Assembly (NCBI RefSeq): GCF_007859935.1
Contig: NZ_SJPO01000006.1
Coordinates: forward strand, 1 to 64,000
DNA length: 64,000 nt
DNA from: Posidoniimonas polymericola
GTDB lineage: Bacteria > Planctomycetota > Planctomycetia > Pirellulales > Lacipirellulaceae
Direction: 5' to 3'
Shown in pieces: positions 45,627-56,016 of this stretch. The notes beneath the pieces were generated by a model. That model made no database searches. It was not told where the DNA came from and was given only the letters and a program-made list of their open reading frames with translations. Every line of letters starts with the position of its first letter. Position 1 is the stretch's first letter. The position numbers and the translations under genes were made by a program.

Positions 45627-47858
45627 CTACAGGGCGCCGCGGCCCACCGACCGTGCAGGGACGCTGAGGGCCATTCCTAGAGCCAACAGGGCGGCGCAGC
45701 ACGGGTCCGGGATCGAGCTCACGTCAACCGAGGACGGAGCCACTATGGCGCCGTACTGCGACTGCCAAACGCCGTAGTCGTCGGCGTCGACGAACCCGTC
45801 GCCGTTGGCGTCGCCGTCGGCTGGGGTGAGGCTGCCCGGCGTGCCGGTTCCAGCACCGTCGTTGCTCCGCCAGAGCGTGTAGTCTGCCGCATCCACCAGC
45901 CCATCGCCGTTGAAGTCGCCGCTCTCCACCGCGACGAGCAACAGCCGCAGCGTGTCCGCGACGATCTCGAGAGTCCAATCGGTGTATGCCGGCGCCTCGG
46001 GAAGGGTAACGTTACCCAGGCCGCTCGGGACGGTCAGTCCTCCGTCGGCAGTCAGCAGCGTAAAGGCGTCGCCCGCGGATGGGGCGAACACCGCTTCGCC
46101 GCCGAGTGGGTCAACCAGCCTGACGCTCAGGGCGCCCAAAAACTCGATGGCCCCGCTCGCCGTGAGCGAGTCGTAGGCTCCCGCGGCGGTCCCGCCGAGC
46201 TCAAGCAGCAATTCTGAACCCTCGACGAGGCTAACATCGCCGCCAAAGGAAACTTCGGCCGGCCCCTCGCCGGGGCTATAGCTGTCACGAAACTCAACCA
46301 GCCCCTCCCCGCCAAAGCCCTGATCACCAATGACCGCTCCGGCGAGCCGGAGCTCGGCCCCGGCCGAAACGGAGATCTCGCTGGTGCCGCCGTGATCCAA
46401 GGGTCCGTCGATCTGCAGCACGCCGGTCTCGATACTGATCAGCCCGTAGTTCTTGATGGACCAGGCCGACTCGATCTGGGTGACGCCATCGCCAGCCGAT
46501 TTGCGGAAGATACCGCTGTTGTTCAGCAGGCCGCTCCGCCCCGACTGATTGCCGCCGGTCAGGTCGGCGTCGGATTGGATATCGAGTTCCCCGCCGGCAG
46601 AAATCACGAGCCCCGCTGGGACGCCCGATGCCGCGGTCGTCACGAGGTCGCCTGCGCCAGACACGCTTGCTATGCCGCCGATCTCAAGCGCCGCGTTGGC
46701 GCGGAGAAACTTGTCTCTGCCGCCGGCGATCATCGCGGTCGCCCCACTTGGAACCGTGAGGCCGCCCGTGCTGGAGACGGCGCCGCCGGTCCAGTTAAGG
46801 TTCTCAACGTAAATCGGGGCGTCCCCACCGATCGACCCGCTGACCAGGTTCAACGCACCGCCGCCCGCCAGCGAGGCCCCCTCAGAAAACTCGATCGCGC
46901 CGTTTACCGACAAAATCCCGTTGTTGGTGAGCACCGCCGTGGCGCCGGTTAGCCGCTGCTTGATGGCGGCGTTGCCGCTGAAGACGCTCAGTGTCGCGCC
47001 GGAGGAAACTTCCCAGCTCCCGCTCGACTGCCCGCCGCCGACGCGGAGCTCCGTGCCGACTCCGCTAACCCGAATTGAGCCGTCGTTCGCGAGCCCGTTC
47101 GCACCGCTGCTCAGCGAGAACACGCCGCTCTGGATGTCGATGGATCCCGTGTTGACGACCGACCAATTGGATCCGACCGTCGCGATCCCTGCCCCGGCAG
47201 ACTTGGTCAGGGCGCCGGCGATATTGAACTCGCCCGACGCGGTCCCGGCTAGGTCGGCGTCGGAGCCCCAGTTAAACGCACCGCCCGCGGCGACGGCGAT
47301 CGCCGCGCCCTCGCCGGCCGCCCTGAATGATCCACCTCCCGCAAACTCAATCGAGCCCTCTACGCTCAACGTCACGACGTCCGCATTGTTGTCGCCGTCG
47401 GCCGGCTGCCCAAGGGCCTTGAATCCGCTGCCGCCTATCAGCAGCTCGGCCCCGGCGCCGACGGTTAGGCCGCCAGGATTCCTGAACTCGGAGTTCTGGG
47501 TCGCCCCCGTCCAGCGGGACGGGACGCCTGGCTCGCCGACAATCGTGACCGTCTGATCCCCCGATACGAACGCGTCGATCAGATTCAGCGAGTTTAGCGT
47601 GACTCCTCCAGGCACATCGACAATGACGTTACCAAGGTTGACGGTCGCGGAGAACGTCGACGCGACGTTGTTGGGCGCCAGGGGCGAGACGTCGGGTACC
47701 GTGGTCCAGCGGGCGCCTTCCGACCATTTGTTCAGGAAGGTTCCGTCCCAGCTGGCGTCGACGTCGGCCGCCAGGACCGCGGTCGGCTGTCCACAGACGA
47801 TTGCACTGAAAAGAGCGACAGCAGAAACGACTCGCAACCTGAACTTTGCGCAGAACAT
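45627..47858 (-). CDS. Secreted repeat-rich protein with dockerin and PEP-CTERM-like end
   Basis: About 743 residues from the ATG at 47858 (GAAGG nine bases upstream; a TTG at 47867 is too close to it). A signal peptide (FRLRVVSAVALFSAIV to LAAD) leads into many short beta repeats of autotransporter-associated type: SWDGTFLNKWSEGARW, GGLTVGAGAELLIGGSG and similar blocks rich in G, S and A. Near the end a dockerin type I pair appears (DFNGDGLVDAADYTLWR and DGDANGDGFVDADDYGVWQ). The last 30 residues, IPDPCCAALLALGMALSVPAR, resemble a PEP-CTERM sorting signal with a basic end. It is probably displayed on the cell surface. Confidence 0.8.
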   Translation of the reverse strand: MFCAKFRLRVVSAVALFSAIVCGQPTAVLAADVDASWDGTFLNKWSEGARWTTVPDVSPLAPNNVASTFSATVNLGNVIVDVPGGVTLNSLNLIDAFVSGDQTVTIVGEPGVPSRWTGATQNSEFRNPGGLTVGAGAELLIGGSGFKALGQPADGDNNADVVTLSVEGSIEFAGGGSFRAAGEGAAIAVAAGGAFNWGSDADLAGTASGEFNIAGALTKSAGAGIATVGSNWSVVNTGSIDIQSGVFSLSSGANGLANDGSIRVSGVGTELRVGGGQSSGSWEVSSGATLSVFSGNAAIKQRLTGATAVLTNNGILSVNGAIEFSEGASLAGGGALNLVSGSIGGDAPIYVENLNWTGGAVSSTGGLTVPSGATAMIAGGRDKFLRANAALEIGGIASVSGAGDLVTTAASGVPAGLVISAGGELDIQSDADLTGGNQSGRSGLLNNSGIFRKSAGDGVTQIESAWSIKNYGLISIETGVLQIDGPLDHGGTSEISVSAGAELRLAGAVIGDQGFGGEGLVEFRDSYSPGEGPAEVSFGGDVSLVEGSELLLELGGTAAGAYDSLTASGAIEFLGALSVRLVDPLGGEAVFAPSAGDAFTLLTADGGLTVPSGLGNVTLPEAPAYTDWTLEIVADTLRLLLVAVESGDFNGDGLVDAADYTLWRSNDGAGTGTPGSLTPADGDANGDGFVDADDYGVWQSQYGAIVAPSSVDVSSIPDPCCAALLALGMALSVPARSVGRGAL

Positions 47859-47935
47859 GGATGCCAACCTTCACTAGGAGTTTCGAGCGCAGATCGAGAC
47901 AATCGCAGCGACGCTCGACTGCGGCGCGCGTGATT

Positions 47936-49942
47936 TCAACGGTCGTCAGACTTGACCGCCCGACTCGGGGCGCCGGCGACAAACGCACCGGGGTCAGTCG
48001 CGGGGAGCCACTCGCGCAGCTCCCGCTTTTTCTTCGCTTCGCTGCCCAGCAGCAGATTGGCCCCGTTAGGATCGCCCAGCAACGCCTCGACTGCGGCAAG
48101 GCACTCGGCCGTGTCAACCAGCCCCTGCTGGCGGTAGTACTGGATTTCGCCGACGACCCTGGGGGTATAGGGGTCCTTGCTCTGGCCGAGCGCGGCGACT
48201 CGGCGGGCGGCGATTCGCTTGTCCATCCGGACCGGCCACGGCTGGGCAGACAACCCGTCTTCCACCAGGTCCTGCAGCTCCCATTTCACGCGGTCGAGCG
48301 AGTCCTCGTCGCCCGGGGCGCCACGGTCGCGGTCGCTGGACGAGTAGTCCAGCCGGCGGCTGCAGTACAGCTCCTTCCGGGCGGCCAGGTCGAGCAGCTT
48401 CAGCCGCAGGCTGCGGCGGGTCCGCTGGGCGTTCTCGTCAACCTCGAGCAGCACCAGAACGTCGCAGCCCGCGTCCTCGGCCTCGTGCCGCAGCACCGAC
48501 TCCGTTCCCGGCTCGAGCACCGAGATTGCCGCCCGCGAATCGAACCCGCGTCCCCGGGCGGGGGTCCGTTTCTGCGGTTCCGTACCAACCTGCAGACGCT
48601 GGGCGAACGAATCCTGCATCGCCTGCCGTTCGATAACGTCCAGCAGCAGGTGGCCGTACGGCGTTGTCGCGGCCTCGAGCTCCGACCGAGAGGGGCCCGG
48701 CCGCGCGGCGCCCTGCGAGCTCCCCGTAATCCCGATACCGTAGTGGACACCGAGCGCTGGCCGACGCAGGGCAGGGCGCCACTCGTAGCCCTGCTCTGGG
48801 ATCCCCCCGAGTGCCGCCGCCGCGTAGGTCCACTGCCAGGCTGAAGTGGCGTCGCTGCTTTCCAGTGCGGCTGCGGCGGCGCTGAGGTAGGTGGAAACGA
48901 GCTTGTCTTGTTGAACCGCCGCGACCCGGGTGCGTTGTCTAACAGGACCGGAATCCGGCAACGACTGAGTCAACGGCTCCGGCGCCGCGGGTCTTGGCGC
49001 CACCGACATGGTTTCCGGGGAGATTGGCTGATTGAGCGAAGCCATCGTGAACGGTTCGCCCCCGTCGGCGGTGTAGACCGCCTTGAAGGCCTCCTCGGGG
49101 GAGCTGAGAGGAATCGAGCCCACCATGCCACCGCCCCAGATCAGAAACACATGGCCCCCCCTGAGCGTGCCGAGCCCTTTCTTTGGTGCGTTCAGGTCCA
49201 CTGCGTACTCTTCAGGCTGCGTCCACTCGACCGCTAGCGCGTCGTCGGCCTCAACAACCAACGCCGTGTTCGACAAGCCATCTTCGACCCGCACGGCGTT
49301 GAGCGAGCGGGGCGTCTTGATGATGGTGCTGGTTCCGACAGTGGCCAGGTAGTTGGTCTTTGTGCCGCCGCGATCTGGGCTCTGGAACACCGCGGGGATC
49401 TGCCCGAGCAACGCCTTGTTCTGCGGGGCGTACCAGGGCTGCGTGCGATCAAACTGCTTGTAGAGTTGCTCGTGGCCCAGGTACGGGAGCAGCTCGACCC
49501 GCCAGCTAAACAACGGCGCGCGGCTGACGTCGATGACCGCGGCAGCGGGGTAAACGGTCTTATCCTTCCGGTAGGCCTCGAGAGCCGCAGCGATCCGCTC
49601 CAGGTTCTCGGCGCTCCGCGCTACGCGTCCCTCGACGGTCGTGGGCAGCTCGCGGCTGGGGGCAGCTTCGGCGGCCGGCGCGGCCGCGACTGCTGCTGTC
49701 GCCGGTTGCGCCGCCGCGGCGGCTGTGGGATCTACCGAGGATGGCGGGGCACTGCTGGCCGCGACTACGGTCGGAGCCGTCTGGGCCGGCAGAGAGTCTT
49801 CCTCGTCATCGGGCGGTCGCTGGATAGCTCTAGCGCGGAAGGCGTCGGCGCTGTTTCCGCCGCAGCCAACCATCGGGGTCGCGACGACCGACACGGTGAT
49901 TGCCGCAATCAATCGGCACGGCAGGTAGTTCGATAGAGTCAT
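47936..49942 (-). CDS. DUF1559-containing lipoprotein
   Basis: About 668 residues from the ATG at 49942, giving a short signal with lipobox TPMVGCGG; an ATG at 49972, inside the end of the PilM gene, is possible. After a Pro/Ala-rich linker comes a DUF1559-like domain without the pilin helix (VYPAAAVIDVSRAPLFSWRVELLPYLGHEQLYKQFD). It shows the family features SLNAVRVEDGLSNTALVVE and GHVFLIWGGGMVGSIP. The C-terminal 300 residues are unfamiliar, with a possible DUF-type beta region (CDVLVLLEVDENAQRTRRS). It follows the PilM-like gene by 19 bp, so it is likely part of the same envelope system. Confidence 0.7.
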   Translation of the reverse strand: MTLSNYLPCRLIAAITVSVVATPMVGCGGNSADAFRARAIQRPPDDEEDSLPAQTAPTVVAASSAPPSSVDPTAAAAAQPATAAVAAAPAAEAAPSRELPTTVEGRVARSAENLERIAAALEAYRKDKTVYPAAAVIDVSRAPLFSWRVELLPYLGHEQLYKQFDRTQPWYAPQNKALLGQIPAVFQSPDRGGTKTNYLATVGTSTIIKTPRSLNAVRVEDGLSNTALVVEADDALAVEWTQPEEYAVDLNAPKKGLGTLRGGHVFLIWGGGMVGSIPLSSPEEAFKAVYTADGGEPFTMASLNQPISPETMSVAPRPAAPEPLTQSLPDSGPVRQRTRVAAVQQDKLVSTYLSAAAAALESSDATSAWQWTYAAAALGGIPEQGYEWRPALRRPALGVHYGIGITGSSQGAARPGPSRSELEAATTPYGHLLLDVIERQAMQDSFAQRLQVGTEPQKRTPARGRGFDSRAAISVLEPGTESVLRHEAEDAGCDVLVLLEVDENAQRTRRSLRLKLLDLAARKELYCSRRLDYSSSDRDRGAPGDEDSLDRVKWELQDLVEDGLSAQPWPVRMDKRIAARRVAALGQSKDPYTPRVVGEIQYYRQQGLVDTAECLAAVEALLGDPNGANLLLGSEAKKKRELREWLPATDPGAFVAGAPSRAVKSDDR

Positions 49943-49961
49943 AGGAGGGTCTTGCTCTTGC

Positions 49962-52220
49962 TTACTTCCCATTTCGGAGGTGGCTCAACATCCCCGGAGC
50001 GTTGGTTTCGCTCCCGGTAACTAGCACTCGGTTGGGGCGGGTGCCCGTGTCGGCGCGGCACAGCTCTAGCGATCGCGTAAGCTGGCCGAGCAGCTCGTCG
50101 TACGAGGGAGCGAGGGCATCGTGCAGCGTGTGCATCGCAGCGGCCGACTCGGGTCGGTAGTAGAGCTTGCTCGCCGCCGGCTGGTCGATCTTCATCGCCT
50201 TGGCAATCTGCGCGATCATCGTGTCGGCGCCGAAATGGATTCCTCGGAACCAGACCTGAGTGGCGGTCACCATCACCAAATTCGTGCTGCCGCCGCTCAC
50301 GTCGAGCAGGGCGACGCCGTCCCCCAGCGCCGCGCGGTCTGCGGCGGCCCCACCGGGTGACAGGGCCGTGTTGAGCAGGGCGATGGGGCTGCTGCCGACC
50401 GCCAACTGGCCCCAGCCAAGCCCCACCAGCGACTGCATCCGCGCCGCGACTAGTTTGCGACTGGCGGCCACCAGCGTCACCCATCGCATCGGCACATCGT
50501 CGACGTCGTCCGGTTCGCCGGGCAGCACTTGCGCGTGGTAGTCAGCGACAATGTACTCCCGCGGGAGCGGCACCCCGGAGCGGACCTCAAACTCTACGGC
50601 TTGGTCGAACTTCGACGGGGTCGGCGCCGGCAACGCGAAGAACCGCCCCAGAGTTTTGGGTCCCGACAGACTAGCGACCACCGGCGTCTGAGTCAGGTCG
50701 TGCCGCTCGGCCAGCTGTGAAAGGGCATGCTGGACTGCCGGCGCCAGCCCGCCGTCCCGCGGCGCGGTGTTGGCCTGCACGTCGTCGCCGTAGGGGATGA
50801 CCTCGATCACACCGACCGCCGGCGGGTCGCCCGTGTTCGCCGGCGACTCGAGGCACACAGCCGTCAACGACCGCCCGCCGATGTCCAGGCCCCAGCCCCG
50901 GCTCGCGCCCCGCCCGCGACCGGCGGCCAGCTTCTTCAGCCAGCCCTTCTTCTCGACAGGCATCAGGTTGAGTGGCAGGGCCGCCCCGCCGAGCGCCTGC
51001 AGCCCGAGCCCGTACCCGACCGAAACTTGATGCGCGGCGACCTTGCGTTGGACGCACGCGGCGACCAACGCGGGCGGCAACGGGCAAACCTCGAGCGATC
51101 CACCTAGCGGGCCCGGCTCGCGGTCCTTGCCCCATGGCGCAGGGACCCCACGCGGGTTTGCGGCCGACTTGGCCGCTCGCTCGCTAACCTGCTGGGCGAT
51201 ACGTCCAGCGGTTTGATCGTTCGGCTGCAGCTTGGCCAGCCTGGTAGCGATGGCCGCGAGAGTCTTGGTCGCGTAAGGGGCGTCGGCGATCTGGGTCGCC
51301 AACCACACCCGCTCGCGGGCCGCCTGGTAGGTTTTCGCGAGCGTCTCATCGGTGATCGGCGGAGACTGCGCGAGCAGCGATTCGGCCTTCCGGTACGCGT
51401 TGTTCTTCAGTGCCTCTACCGCCCCGGCAACGCACGCCGTGGCGCGTCGGCTATCGGCGGACGCTTGCCATTGTTCGAGTTGCGGCAACAGCTTCTCAAC
51501 CAACGGGTCGGTCGGGGTCACTTCGGCCAGGAGCCGCGCGACCCGCAGCAGCCCTTCGTACTTCTTCTCACGCACGCCGGCCCGCAGCTGGGCCCGCAGC
51601 TGGTTGCTGCGTTCGACCTTCTCCGCGGCCTGCTTGTGGAGCTCCGCCAGCTCAGCCACCCGCAGGGCGGGAGGTATCTTGTCGGCCTCAGCCAGCGCGG
51701 CTGCGTAGTCGGCAGCGGCAATCAGCCGATTGACCTCTTCCAGCACGCCCGAGGACTGCTGCACGACCGCCTCGCGGCGTTCGCGGTAGGCGGCGACGCG
51801 GTTGTCGCGCTCGGTTACCAAGTTCGCCAGCCGCGAGTGGGCAGTTAGCGTCAGCCCGTCGAGCAGGGCCGCGGCGTCTACCAGGCGTCCAAACTCCGCC
51901 AGCCTGTCGGCCTCGGCGAACCTGCTCTGGGCGTCGGCCAGCACTCCGTTGAGCCGGGCGGCTAGTTCGCTACCGCAGCTGCCGCAAAACTTCTCGGCGA
52001 CCGAGTTTTGGTGTTCGCAGTCGAGGCACGGGTCCCACAGCCGGAAGCCGCACTGGCCGCAGAACTTGGCCGCCTGGTTGGCCGCCGAGCGGCACCCGGG
52101 GCAGCTCAGCTCGCGGGCGCCTGCGGGGGTGTCGATGGGCGGCGGCGATCCCGCCAACGCTGCGTGCGATGCGCAATTGCTCGGTTGCATGTCTAGCTCA
52201 CTCGATGCGTGCGAAGGCAT
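49962..52220 (-). CDS. PilM-like ATPase fold with N-terminal double zinc ribbon
   Basis: A 752-residue protein; the start at 52220 has AGAGGA seven bases upstream. Residues about 40-86 form two zinc ribbons (CPGC with CGQC, then CLDC with CGSC). A long helical region follows (about 90-340). The C-terminal third is PilM-like (actin/ASKHA fold): WGLDIGGRSLTAVCLE, VVASLSGPKTLGRFFALP, FDQAVEFEVRSGVPLPREYI and VALLDVSGGSTNLVMVT. PilM builds the cytoplasmic ring of type IV pili or secretion systems. Zinc ribbons joined to PilM are not part of the normal protein. Pilin-like DUF1559 genes lie upstream, supporting a role in a planctomycete pilus-like system. Confidence 0.78.
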   Translation of the reverse strand: MPSHASSELDMQPSNCASHAALAGSPPPIDTPAGARELSCPGCRSAANQAAKFCGQCGFRLWDPCLDCEHQNSVAEKFCGSCGSELAARLNGVLADAQSRFAEADRLAEFGRLVDAAALLDGLTLTAHSRLANLVTERDNRVAAYRERREAVVQQSSGVLEEVNRLIAAADYAAALAEADKIPPALRVAELAELHKQAAEKVERSNQLRAQLRAGVREKKYEGLLRVARLLAEVTPTDPLVEKLLPQLEQWQASADSRRATACVAGAVEALKNNAYRKAESLLAQSPPITDETLAKTYQAARERVWLATQIADAPYATKTLAAIATRLAKLQPNDQTAGRIAQQVSERAAKSAANPRGVPAPWGKDREPGPLGGSLEVCPLPPALVAACVQRKVAAHQVSVGYGLGLQALGGAALPLNLMPVEKKGWLKKLAAGRGRGASRGWGLDIGGRSLTAVCLESPANTGDPPAVGVIEVIPYGDDVQANTAPRDGGLAPAVQHALSQLAERHDLTQTPVVASLSGPKTLGRFFALPAPTPSKFDQAVEFEVRSGVPLPREYIVADYHAQVLPGEPDDVDDVPMRWVTLVAASRKLVAARMQSLVGLGWGQLAVGSSPIALLNTALSPGGAAADRAALGDGVALLDVSGGSTNLVMVTATQVWFRGIHFGADTMIAQIAKAMKIDQPAASKLYYRPESAAAMHTLHDALAPSYDELLGQLTRSLELCRADTGTRPNRVLVTGSETNAPGMLSHLRNGK

Positions 52221-52355: not shown

Positions 52356-53621
52356 CTAGTTTTCAAACACGCCCGACTTCGAGACGCCTTCGAGGAAGAT
52401 GCCGTTGTAGATACGGAGGCGATCCAGCTCCGGATCCGGGCCCCGGAAGCCGACCTTAGCGTAGTCGGCGTCGGTAAGGTTGGCCGGGACGGGGAACCCA
52501 GGGTTCAGGAAGCCGTCATTGTTGGTGTCGTAGAATTGCTTGACGCCACCGTCGGCAAACAGGATGTTGCAGACGCCGTCGTGCACAGCAAACCAGTCAC
52601 GGGTGTCTTGCAGGTAGAGCTGCTGACCAGCCGATCCGTCCGGGCCCACCGGGACGCCGGTGCACTCGTCTTGGCTGCTCTCGCAGGCACGCTGATCAAC
52701 CATGCTGGCGCCTTTGGCAACCAGGTTGACCGTGTTGGTCGACGCGCTGAAGTAGGCAGGTCCGTCGTTGAACGCCTCGGTCAAGCCTTCGCCCTGGGTG
52801 ATGAAGGTACGCGAGTCGTTGGTGCCGTTGGCGAATGGGTCCGTCGGTCCGTAGGACAGAGTCTGCGATAGGGTCGCCTCGTCCGCGTCGCCAGGGGCGG
52901 CGTCGCCGAGGAGGGCGATGTTCGCCGTGACGACCTTGGCACTCTCGGCAAGACGCAGCGTCAGCGGCCCGCCGGTAGCGATGGTGTCCTTCTGACTTCC
53001 GGCACTCGACAAAGTGTTCGGCGTGGCGGCAGCCGCATCCATCAGCGGCTTGGTTCGCACGAGGTGCCAACCAGCAGCGTAGTTGGTATTGTAACCCTCG
53101 GCCATAATGGCGCGGGCGATCAGATTGGCGCGTTCGGGGGTGTTTGGAGCGGTGCCTGCGAAGGTCGAACCGCTGCCGCCGCTTGCGCCGTTGTAGGTTG
53201 CCTGACCAGCCACGCCCTGGGCTAGCTTGGTGGGATCAGCGCCACCCTTGCCGTCGGTGGTGTCGTTGCCGAGCAGGTCGTTGAGCTTCTCCGAACCGCG
53301 GAGCGGGTTGGCAGGGCAGAGCATGTCGCCGGGCAGCGCGGCCTGGGCGTTGACCAGGTCAGCAACCCAGCCGTAGACGTCCATCGCGCCGTCGCGACGG
53401 TAGTCGCTGGCGCCGGTGCAGTAGCGGCCCTGGGCGTCGCGGTCGGCGAACAGCAGCAGGCCGACGCCGAACTGGCGGAGGTTGTTCTGGCAGGCGGCGC
53501 GGCGGGCGGCCGAGCGGGCGCTGGTGACGGCCGGCAGCAGCAGCGCGACAAGAATGCCGATGATGGCGATCACCACCAGCAGCTCAACAAGCGTGAAACC
53601 ACGCGAACGAGTAGCTTTCAT
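52356..53621 (-). CDS. DUF1559 prepilin-like protein 1
   Basis: A 421-residue protein with a type IV prepilin N-terminus: basic leader MKATRSRG, cleavage before FTLVE, then the hydrophobic helix [19 protein letters not shown]. The start at 53621 has AGGAG ten bases upstream. The DUF1559 domain follows ([21 protein letters not shown]), ending with the family element [20 protein letters not shown]. Such proteins are greatly expanded in planctomycetes. Shared segments (CTGA, then GWVADLV, then MLCPAN) tie it to the paralogue at 53955-55094; they form a distinct pair. Confidence 0.92.
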
Positions 53622-53954: not shown

Positions 53955-55094
53955 TCAGTACCCGCGTAGCGCCGGCTTGCTAAACACGACATCCTCGTCG
54001 ATCTCGATGGCGTCACTCTCGTAGCCGCCATCAGCAATCGGAAACCCGTTGTTCAGCAGGCCGTCGTCGTTCTCGTCGTCGAGCGGCCGCACGCCGCCGT
54101 CGGCCATCAGCACGTTGCACTGGCCGCGGTGCGCGACCGCGAAGCCGCGATAGTCCTGGCGGGTCTTCGACCAGCCGGCCCACCAGCCGTCGGGCCCGCC
54201 GCGAGGCGTGTCGTCGGGGAAGCTGGGCGGCTTCAGGTCACTGGTCTGGACCGGCCCCCCGGTTACACTGCCGGCGGTTTCTACCCCGGGCTGTAGTCCG
54301 CCGATCATGGCAGTCAGTTGGCCGGCGACGCCGCCATCGGCGAGCAGCGGGATCAAGTTGCTCGGGACCTTCGACGCGTCAAGCTGGGACAGCTTGAGGG
54401 GGCCGAACGTAGAACTCCGGCTCTTTAGGGACGGGGGGCAGCTGGGGTCGCTCGAGCTCAGGTTGCCGCCGCTCCCGATCCGGGGACCGCCTCGAACCAT
54501 CAGCCAACTGCTCACATAGTTCGTGTTGTAGAACTTGTCGATCACCTTGCCCTGGATGACCGCGACACGCTCCGCGCCGCCAGCCGCCAGGGCCCCCTCG
54601 AGGATCTCGCGGCACGGGTTGATGACGGGCGTGCCATCGGGCTTCTTGGTGGGTTCGCTCCCCTTAGGATCGACGCACTCGCCGAACGACGACTCGGTGA
54701 GCGTCAGCAGTTGGTTGACGGTCTCGCTGACCTGCGACACGTTCGCCGGGCAGAGCATTTGCCCAACCGGCGACCCCTGGTCAACCAAGTCGGCGACCCA
54801 GCCTACTTCCGTAATGGCGCCCTCGTGCTTCCAGTCAAAGGCACCCGTGCAAAAAGCGCCGACCCGCGAAGCGTTCGAGTGGAGACCGATGCCGAACTGG
54901 CGGAGATTATTGGCGCAGGCGGTCTGCCGACTCGCGGCTCGGGCGGCATTTACCGCCGGGAAGAGCAGGGCTACTAAGATGCCGATGATCGAGATCACCA
55001 CCAGCAACTCGACAAGCGTCATGCCCTGAGAAGCCCGCGCAACTTGGACCTTCGGCTTACCGCCACGCGGTGTCGGTGTCATAGGAGAACTCAT
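53955..55094 (-). CDS. DUF1559 prepilin-like protein 2
   Basis: About 379 residues from the ATG at 55094; an upstream TTG at 55115 also keeps the frame. The leader is long and basic (to [10 protein letters not shown]), then cleavage before MTLVE and the helix [19 protein letters not shown]. The DUF1559 domain starts [20 protein letters not shown] and ends with [20 protein letters not shown]. It is a paralogue of the protein at 52356-53621, with shared Cys positions and segment order. It may form a mixed fibre or sheath component with that protein. Confidence 0.9.
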
Positions 55095-56016
55095 GGCGGT
55101 GTTTGTCCTTGCCAACCAATCGGGGGCGACTGGTAAGGCTGCATCCTGCTGAGCGATTGGTAAGAGTAGCTCTTCCGCGTCTGTTCCTACGACCTCAAAC
55201 CAAACCTACATCTTGCGCGTAACGACGAATTGCCTGCGCGGGTGAGTACGATAGCAGCTAGAACCTGCGGCTAGGTGAAGGCCGAGTTAAGAATGCCTTC
55301 AAATTTGATGAGGATCTGATGAGTAGCATGGCGCGCCGGCTTCGCTCCCAACCTCGCCGAGGAATTGCCGACAAGGCAGCGGCGCCGCTGGGAGACACTA
55401 CAGCCGCGAGCAGGCGGCAAATCAGGCTAGCCACTCCCTGCACCTGTAGTTAGATGATCCAGCGACGAAGGTGCTGTCCGGGACCATGCGCGTGCGCGTA
55501 GGTCGAGAATGAAGTTCGTGCCTCGAAGCAGGCCGCGCCCGGAGCCCCTGCGAGACTCTATTCTTGTTTGGACAGAGACTTCGACTGCTCCTGGCCCTTT
55601 CACGGCGGCACACAGAAAACCAAGAACTCCCTGGTTCCGTGACTGCGTACGAACTCGAACTGCAACCTCGCCGACCTTTCCGCATGTTCCTGTGGCGCCG
55701 TCGTGCTGGATGAGTTGGCAAGTTCACGCAGCGCGGACCGTCAAGTTTTCGTTGCCCTTACGAAGCGTCGCTCATCAACGCCAACGATTCGTGCACCGCT
55801 GCCCGGCTTCTATGCACGCGCAGAGATCCGGTGGCGCCCTACTGGGCGAATGCTGTTCACCTGGGTTCACCTTGTGGGCTCTGTGGATGCGCGTGGGTCA
55901 TTCTCTGCCCATGCCAGACTTTGGCTTGCGAGCTGCGTTAGTGGCAATCAGCAGTTGGTGGACCGCCGCTACCCGGTCCCTCGCCATCTCTCCGCCTCAG
56001 CCCCAAGAAGTCCAAC
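55095..56016. other. Long region without a recognised gene
   Basis: About 920 bp separate the divergent DUF1559 and nitrate-type operons. GC is lower and codon structure is poor. A 173-codon open frame (55509-56030) overlaps the nrtA start and has no protein features. The stretch could hold a degraded gene, a long leader or a regulatory RNA. Confidence 0.5.

Follow-up and report, generated by a model that had tools for sequence, protein, structure and literature searches.

A circularly permuted PilM-like protein with a PilN-type motif before its core, encoded beside two DUF1559 pseudopilins in Pirellulales

The window analysed here is a stretch of 64,000 nucleotides from Posidoniimonas polymericola (contig NZ_SJPO01000006.1, positions 1 to 64,000). 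At 49962..52220 (-) it carries an ATG-started gene for a protein of 752 aa, in which zinc ribbons and a helical region are followed by a PilM domain with its parts in circularly permuted order. The double zinc ribbon, with the CxxC...CxxC pattern present twice (residues about 40-83, 51975..52103 (-)), is matched by PF12773 (DZR) with an E value of 1.7e-7. It is followed by a TPR-like helical region (residues 86-353, 51162..51965 (-)), by a displaced PilM C-terminal segment with a PilN-like NLxP motif (residues 373-421, 50958..51104 (-)) and by a linker leading from the old C-terminus to the old N-terminus (residues 422-442, 50895..50957 (-)). The PilM core (residues 443-752, 49965..50894 (-)) runs from the N-terminal strand, which begins with WGLDIG at residue 443, to the adenosine-motif helix. 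No transmembrane helix is evident in the window copy, the strongest hydrophobic window scoring 1.49.

The original prediction had placed two zinc ribbons and about 250 helical residues ahead of PilM, and both were borne out. The eight Cys of the ribbons are invariant in 35/35 distinct relatives, and residues 86-353 are nearly all helix in the AlphaFold2 model as assigned by DSSP (about 270 helical residues, pLDDT ~90). The description was incomplete in that the PilM domain itself is rearranged and residues 373-421 already belong to it. The ribbon/helix module is homologous to the region downstream of planctomycete Ser/Thr (Hanks-type) kinase domains, with E values down to 9e-48. The double-zinc-ribbon Ser/Thr kinases have the same module, whereas the window protein carries a PilM domain and no kinase domain by Pfam search. 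Judged by this homology, the module is not pilus-specific, since it occurs after kinase domains.

To place the C-terminal domain among actin-like proteins, the profile of the window family was compared with the PDB. PilM was matched at E values of 1.5e-42 to 6e-24 and FtsA at 1.1e-3. In the fold comparison of the predicted structure, 2ych PilM ranked first with a Z score of 23.8, FtsA reaching up to 22.6, and model residues 437-751 were aligned to chain residues 11-329 of 2ych. FtsA was rejected as the identity of the domain, since the sequence profile clearly prefers PilM and 2ych is also top by fold; the assignment to PilM rather than FtsA made beforehand thus holds. The cytoplasmic domain of GspL (1yf5, 4pht), also an actin-like coupling domain, is a weaker match than PilM (Foldseek E 5e-6). 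The nearest NCBIfam model is the Amuc_1101 PilM-like family (NF045709, E 7.7e-15). Pfam PilM_2 (PF11104) gave no match on the window protein, and one relative (L038) scored 107.5 bits with TIGR01175, below the cut-off of 133.

The first clue to a permutation came from the family alignment, in which the stretch ahead of the core (GLALQGLG...NLxP) resembles the end of the canonical PilM-PilN (SYGLCVQGLG...TNLLP). An HMM of the canonical C-terminal segment matched 30/30 permuted proteins directly upstream of the WGxD motif (best E 8e-11), and all 30 outranked all 630 shuffled or reversed decoys (best decoy E 2). Reciprocally, an HMM of the permuted segment matched 20/20 canonical proteins at residues ~315-373, the weakest with an E value of 1.7e-7 and the best of 520 decoys with 0.08. 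On HMM-HMM comparison, query columns 461-772 correspond to PilM 5-316 (E 3e-62) and, in a second alignment, the preceding columns 385-441 correspond to PilM 315-371 (E 2.2e-9); the two pieces meet at PilM position 315/316 and jointly span 5-371. Profile comparison gave the same two stretches in swapped order for 4/4 distinct solved PilM sequences matched, the scores of the second stretch against single PDB chains being individually insignificant, and the 5eou PilM:PilN1-12 chimera aligned right through its NLLPWRE. In the permuted proteins the chain stops at the adenosine-motif helix, generally a few residues beyond it. These results indicate that the C-terminal segment and NLxP precede the N-terminal strand and that the PilM domain is almost certainly circularly permuted.

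The window copy alone gives a weak score for its displaced segment with the canonical C-segment HMM (E 6e-4), and the case for permutation therefore rests on the family profile. In the AlphaFold2 model, residues 358-752 form one compact domain (pTM 0.86), to which the displaced segment contributes a strand (375-378) and two helices (383-392 and 396-410) with pLDDT ~80-93. Structural alignment with VIA-align and Foldseek covered essentially the core (437-751), the displaced segment lying outside the alignment. Rotation of the permuted proteins in silico brought no useful gain against the full canonical HMM (mean 1.2 bits vs 0.8 for shuffles), probably because the extra junction residues break the local alignment. 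In the core tree, which is unrooted, has long branches and includes one poorly cut row (L118), permuted and canonical forms are split on a single branch with support of 100/100, a topology compatible with one permutation event.

The NLxP motif of the window copy is N418 L419 M420 P421. Among 35 distinct family members, N is kept in 27/35 (D in 4), L in 34/35 and P in 29/35. A spacer of 20-29 residues separates the motif from the old N-terminal strand across the family; in the model of the window copy, residues 427-434 of the linker have low pLDDT. The PilM proteins of type IVa pili (2ych from Thermus, 5eou/5eox from Pseudomonas, 3jc8 from Myxococcus) have the actin-like fold in common with the window family, in which their P1 and P2 motifs are recognisable too and the NLxP peptide of PilN is present. 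They are linear in order, whereas the window family is circularly permuted with the zinc-ribbon/helix module at its new N-terminus. The PilN motif of type IVa systems belongs to a separate membrane protein, whereas here it is part of an internal linker. In the engineered 5eou chimera the C-terminal segment continues covalently into the PilN peptide as it does in the window family, but the join in the latter is natural and the peptide runs on into the PilM N-terminus. The nearest family model, the Amuc_1101/planctomycete PilM-PilN fusion, in which PilM is directly followed by the PilN motif, is represented in the same genome (contig C10). This fusion has the membrane and periplasmic parts of PilN, whereas the window protein lacks both, is permuted and lies at a separate locus. 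Permuted and canonical forms thus coexist in the window's genome.

Canonical PilM of this lineage carries PilN fused next to it, with the NLxP docking motif. Since the displaced segment also ends in the PilN motif, the permuted form probably arose when a PilM-PilN fusion was duplicated in tandem and the outer halves were lost; a zinc-ribbon/helix module like those of planctomycete kinases was presumably attached at the new N-terminus. The duplication intermediate was not found. G044 and G046, two genomes with pilin A in which permuted PilM was undetected, were examined for an unpermuted intermediate, and none was seen: at the pilin A locus of G044 the contig stops just past the DUF1573 gene, and in G046 an unrelated membrane/TPR protein comes next. 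G044 has a second PilM paralogue elsewhere (L123:2842-5520 (-)); canonical in order, it carries NLLP and a membrane helix and has a long tail that is not PilN.

A single-protein search of the genome_contigs collection gave no match, and an alignment of a conserved subset used as query yielded 11 named loci. Full-length homologues were found in 6 of the 35 other genomes of the same genus or family and in four other genomes of the order. Across the order, profile matches spanning the ribbons and the PilM core were obtained in ~70 of 396 genomes, single-contig genomes included; named carriers are Blastopirellula marina DSM 3645 and Pirellulales and Thermoguttaceae MAGs. The search for this architecture in other planctomycetes, proposed at the outset, was thus positive. 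An assembly error was rejected as the cause of the domain join, since the same architecture recurs in ~70 genomes, some of them single-contig. Full-length matches in class-wide and phylum-wide samples came only from Pirellulales, other groups having the ribbon/helix module only. Canonical PilM, by profile search, is also present in nearly every genome of the order, most carriers of permuted PilM included.

The genes around the permuted PilM gene are on the same strand. Two DUF1559 pseudopilins with an N_methyl signal are encoded at 52356..53621 (-) (pseudopilin B; PF07596 E 6.5e-14, PF07963 E 4.6e-8) and 53955..55115 (-) (pseudopilin A, by Pfam search). A DUF1559-domain lipoprotein gene (47936..49972 (-); PF07596 E 6.3e-17) overlaps the end of the permuted PilM gene, and downstream of it lies the gene of a secreted dockerin-bearing protein (45627..47867 (-)). 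Strong homologues of the latter occur downstream of the lipoprotein in the same cassette of two genomes (G004 and G006), the G004 copy having a weak PEP-CTERM-like end. The cassette comprises permuted PilM and two DUF1559 pseudopilins, in most cases accompanied by a DUF1573 protein and often by a lipoprotein. Near the permuted gene in 21 further loci, pseudopilin B was found in 21/21, pseudopilin A in 19/21 (one exception being a truncated contig) and a DUF1573 membrane protein gene in 15/21. A homologue of the DUF1559 lipoprotein is present in 6/21 of these loci and a different protein, X2, in 7/21. X2 is uncharacterised, ~700 aa long and without Pfam matches (L039:11597-13603, L040:4074-6254, L072, L075, L076, L080 and L081), and no homology was detectable between it and the cassette lipoprotein. 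The DUF1573 gene is missing from the window cassette; the genome's best DUF1573 homologue outside the cassette (L120, C4:354870-355478; E 1.9e-25, 33% identity) is possibly the absent gene. In L076:825-10178 and L081:757-10145 the cassette is internally rearranged, with the DUF1573 and pilin B genes inverted and the linkage kept.

In a set of 59 genomes, a pilin A orthologue was present in 8 of the 10 with the permuted protein vs 2 of the 49 without it (Fisher P 8.5e-7), and the two exceptions among the carriers are explicable by a truncated contig (G010) and by two type-B pilins (G038). Permuted PilM is very probably linked to the two DUF1559 pseudopilins as a cassette. The earlier suggestion of an unusual planctomycete PilM platform stands as far as its tie to DUF1559 prepilin-like genes and a lipoprotein is concerned, which recurs in the 21 further loci and in co-occurrence; its component of missing parts does not. 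Canonical PilM sits beside PilN, PilO and a secretin, whereas the permuted gene sits beside pseudopilins, and inspection of the cassette loci showed no genes for PilN, PilO or PilQ. Elsewhere, the window's genome encodes the canonical PilM-PilN fusion (C10, L042) with a large secretin nearby, and it gives 12 T2SSE-family ATPase matches and 17 T2SSF matches and contains prepilin peptidases.

On binding PilN, Pseudomonas PilM closes and no longer dimerises, and the role of PilM, as a ligand-gated scaffold or as an ATPase, is debated. In the permuted protein, the NLxP linker may fill the PilN groove in cis, within the same domain; the odds of such self-occupation are about even. A groove filled in cis would give a soluble, PilN-independent PilM held in the partner-bound state. 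For a protein that has no PilN membrane part and keeps the peptide in cis, a soluble PilM with its partner always bound is the simplest interpretation. The protein could then couple the pseudopilin pair of the cassette to a PilB/PilC-type motor and platform encoded elsewhere, and the zinc-ribbon/helix module might link it to regulation or localisation. The dedicated coupling of the pseudopilin pair is suggested tentatively, at slightly less than an even chance. Taken as a whole, a permuted, self-liganded, soluble PilM serving the cassette pseudopilins through a shared motor is the best explanation and is proposed with moderate confidence. That a single natural permutation captured the PilN ligand as a linker, and so created a PilN-independent coupling protein for a two-pseudopilin system of Pirellulales, is an evenly balanced proposition.

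Alternatively, the groove of permuted PilM could be free to bind canonical PilN in trans. As a regulatory subunit, the protein would then compete with the main PilM or modulate it within the main type IV pilus. Most genomes with the permuted form also hold canonical PilM, and a module common to kinases suits a regulator. Such a role is nevertheless rather unlikely: canonical PilN of the lineage is fused to canonical PilM, with its peptide already tethered, the conservation of NLxP in the permuted linker speaks for a function in cis, and the cassette has its own pseudopilins.

Thermus PilM acts as the link between PilN/O and the motor ATPase, and its Lys-26 is needed to bind ATP but is dispensable for motor stimulation (K26A data, PMC6325625). 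At the position equivalent to Lys-26 (Thermus numbering), the window copy has T453 (50862-50864), the only such case among 35 family members, Lys being kept in the other 34. S642 replaces a P2 Gly conserved in 33/35. With these two substitutions the window copy may not bind ATP and may be ATP-independent. The loss of the ATP-binding lysine (K26A data, PMC6325625), together with a zinc-ribbon/helix module common to Ser/Thr kinases, would also fit a role in cytosolic signalling within the planctomycete kinase network, in which the protein no longer does pilus work and is linked to the pilin neighbours only through gene regulation. The conserved linkage and co-occurrence with two pseudopilins, and the lysine kept in 34/35 members, make this improbable.

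The original prediction took the protein to be a PilM whose N-terminal zinc ribbons could recruit a partner in place of missing pilus components, the PilM domain itself being of the ordinary kind on this view. The ribbons and the PilM core are real, and PilN, PilO and PilQ genes are unseen in the cassette loci. The PilM domain is permuted, though, and PilM-PilN, secretin, ATPases, T2SSF proteins and prepilin peptidases are encoded elsewhere in the genome, so that a replacement is not needed; this view is largely refuted and highly improbable. The notion that no permutation occurred, the segment ahead of the core being an unrelated helical hairpin with a chance likeness to the PilM end and the C-terminus simply lost, draws on the weak score of the window protein by itself and is negligible in the face of the family-level E values, the reciprocal matches, the exact complementarity at PilM 315/316 and the conservation of NLxP.

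The permuted PilM appears to be previously undescribed; full-text searches of open-licence papers returned no earlier report, and to our knowledge there is none. A PilM with a built-in partner peptide, found order-wide and evolving beside the normal form, amounts to a natural experiment on the essential parts of PilM-PilN coupling. Two DUF1559 proteins, from a family expanded in planctomycetes, are now tied to a pilus-type coupling protein, which makes their role testable; in P. limnophila, two proteins of the family are essential (PMC10632474). In some permuted members, an extra conserved N-terminal region of ~100 residues, absent from the window copy, precedes the zinc ribbons. Its motif is DPYxxxL...YxxL...KxAYDxxL, it is perhaps J-domain-like, and it is carried by L077:7716-10289 (Blastopirellula marina), L045 and L056-L061.
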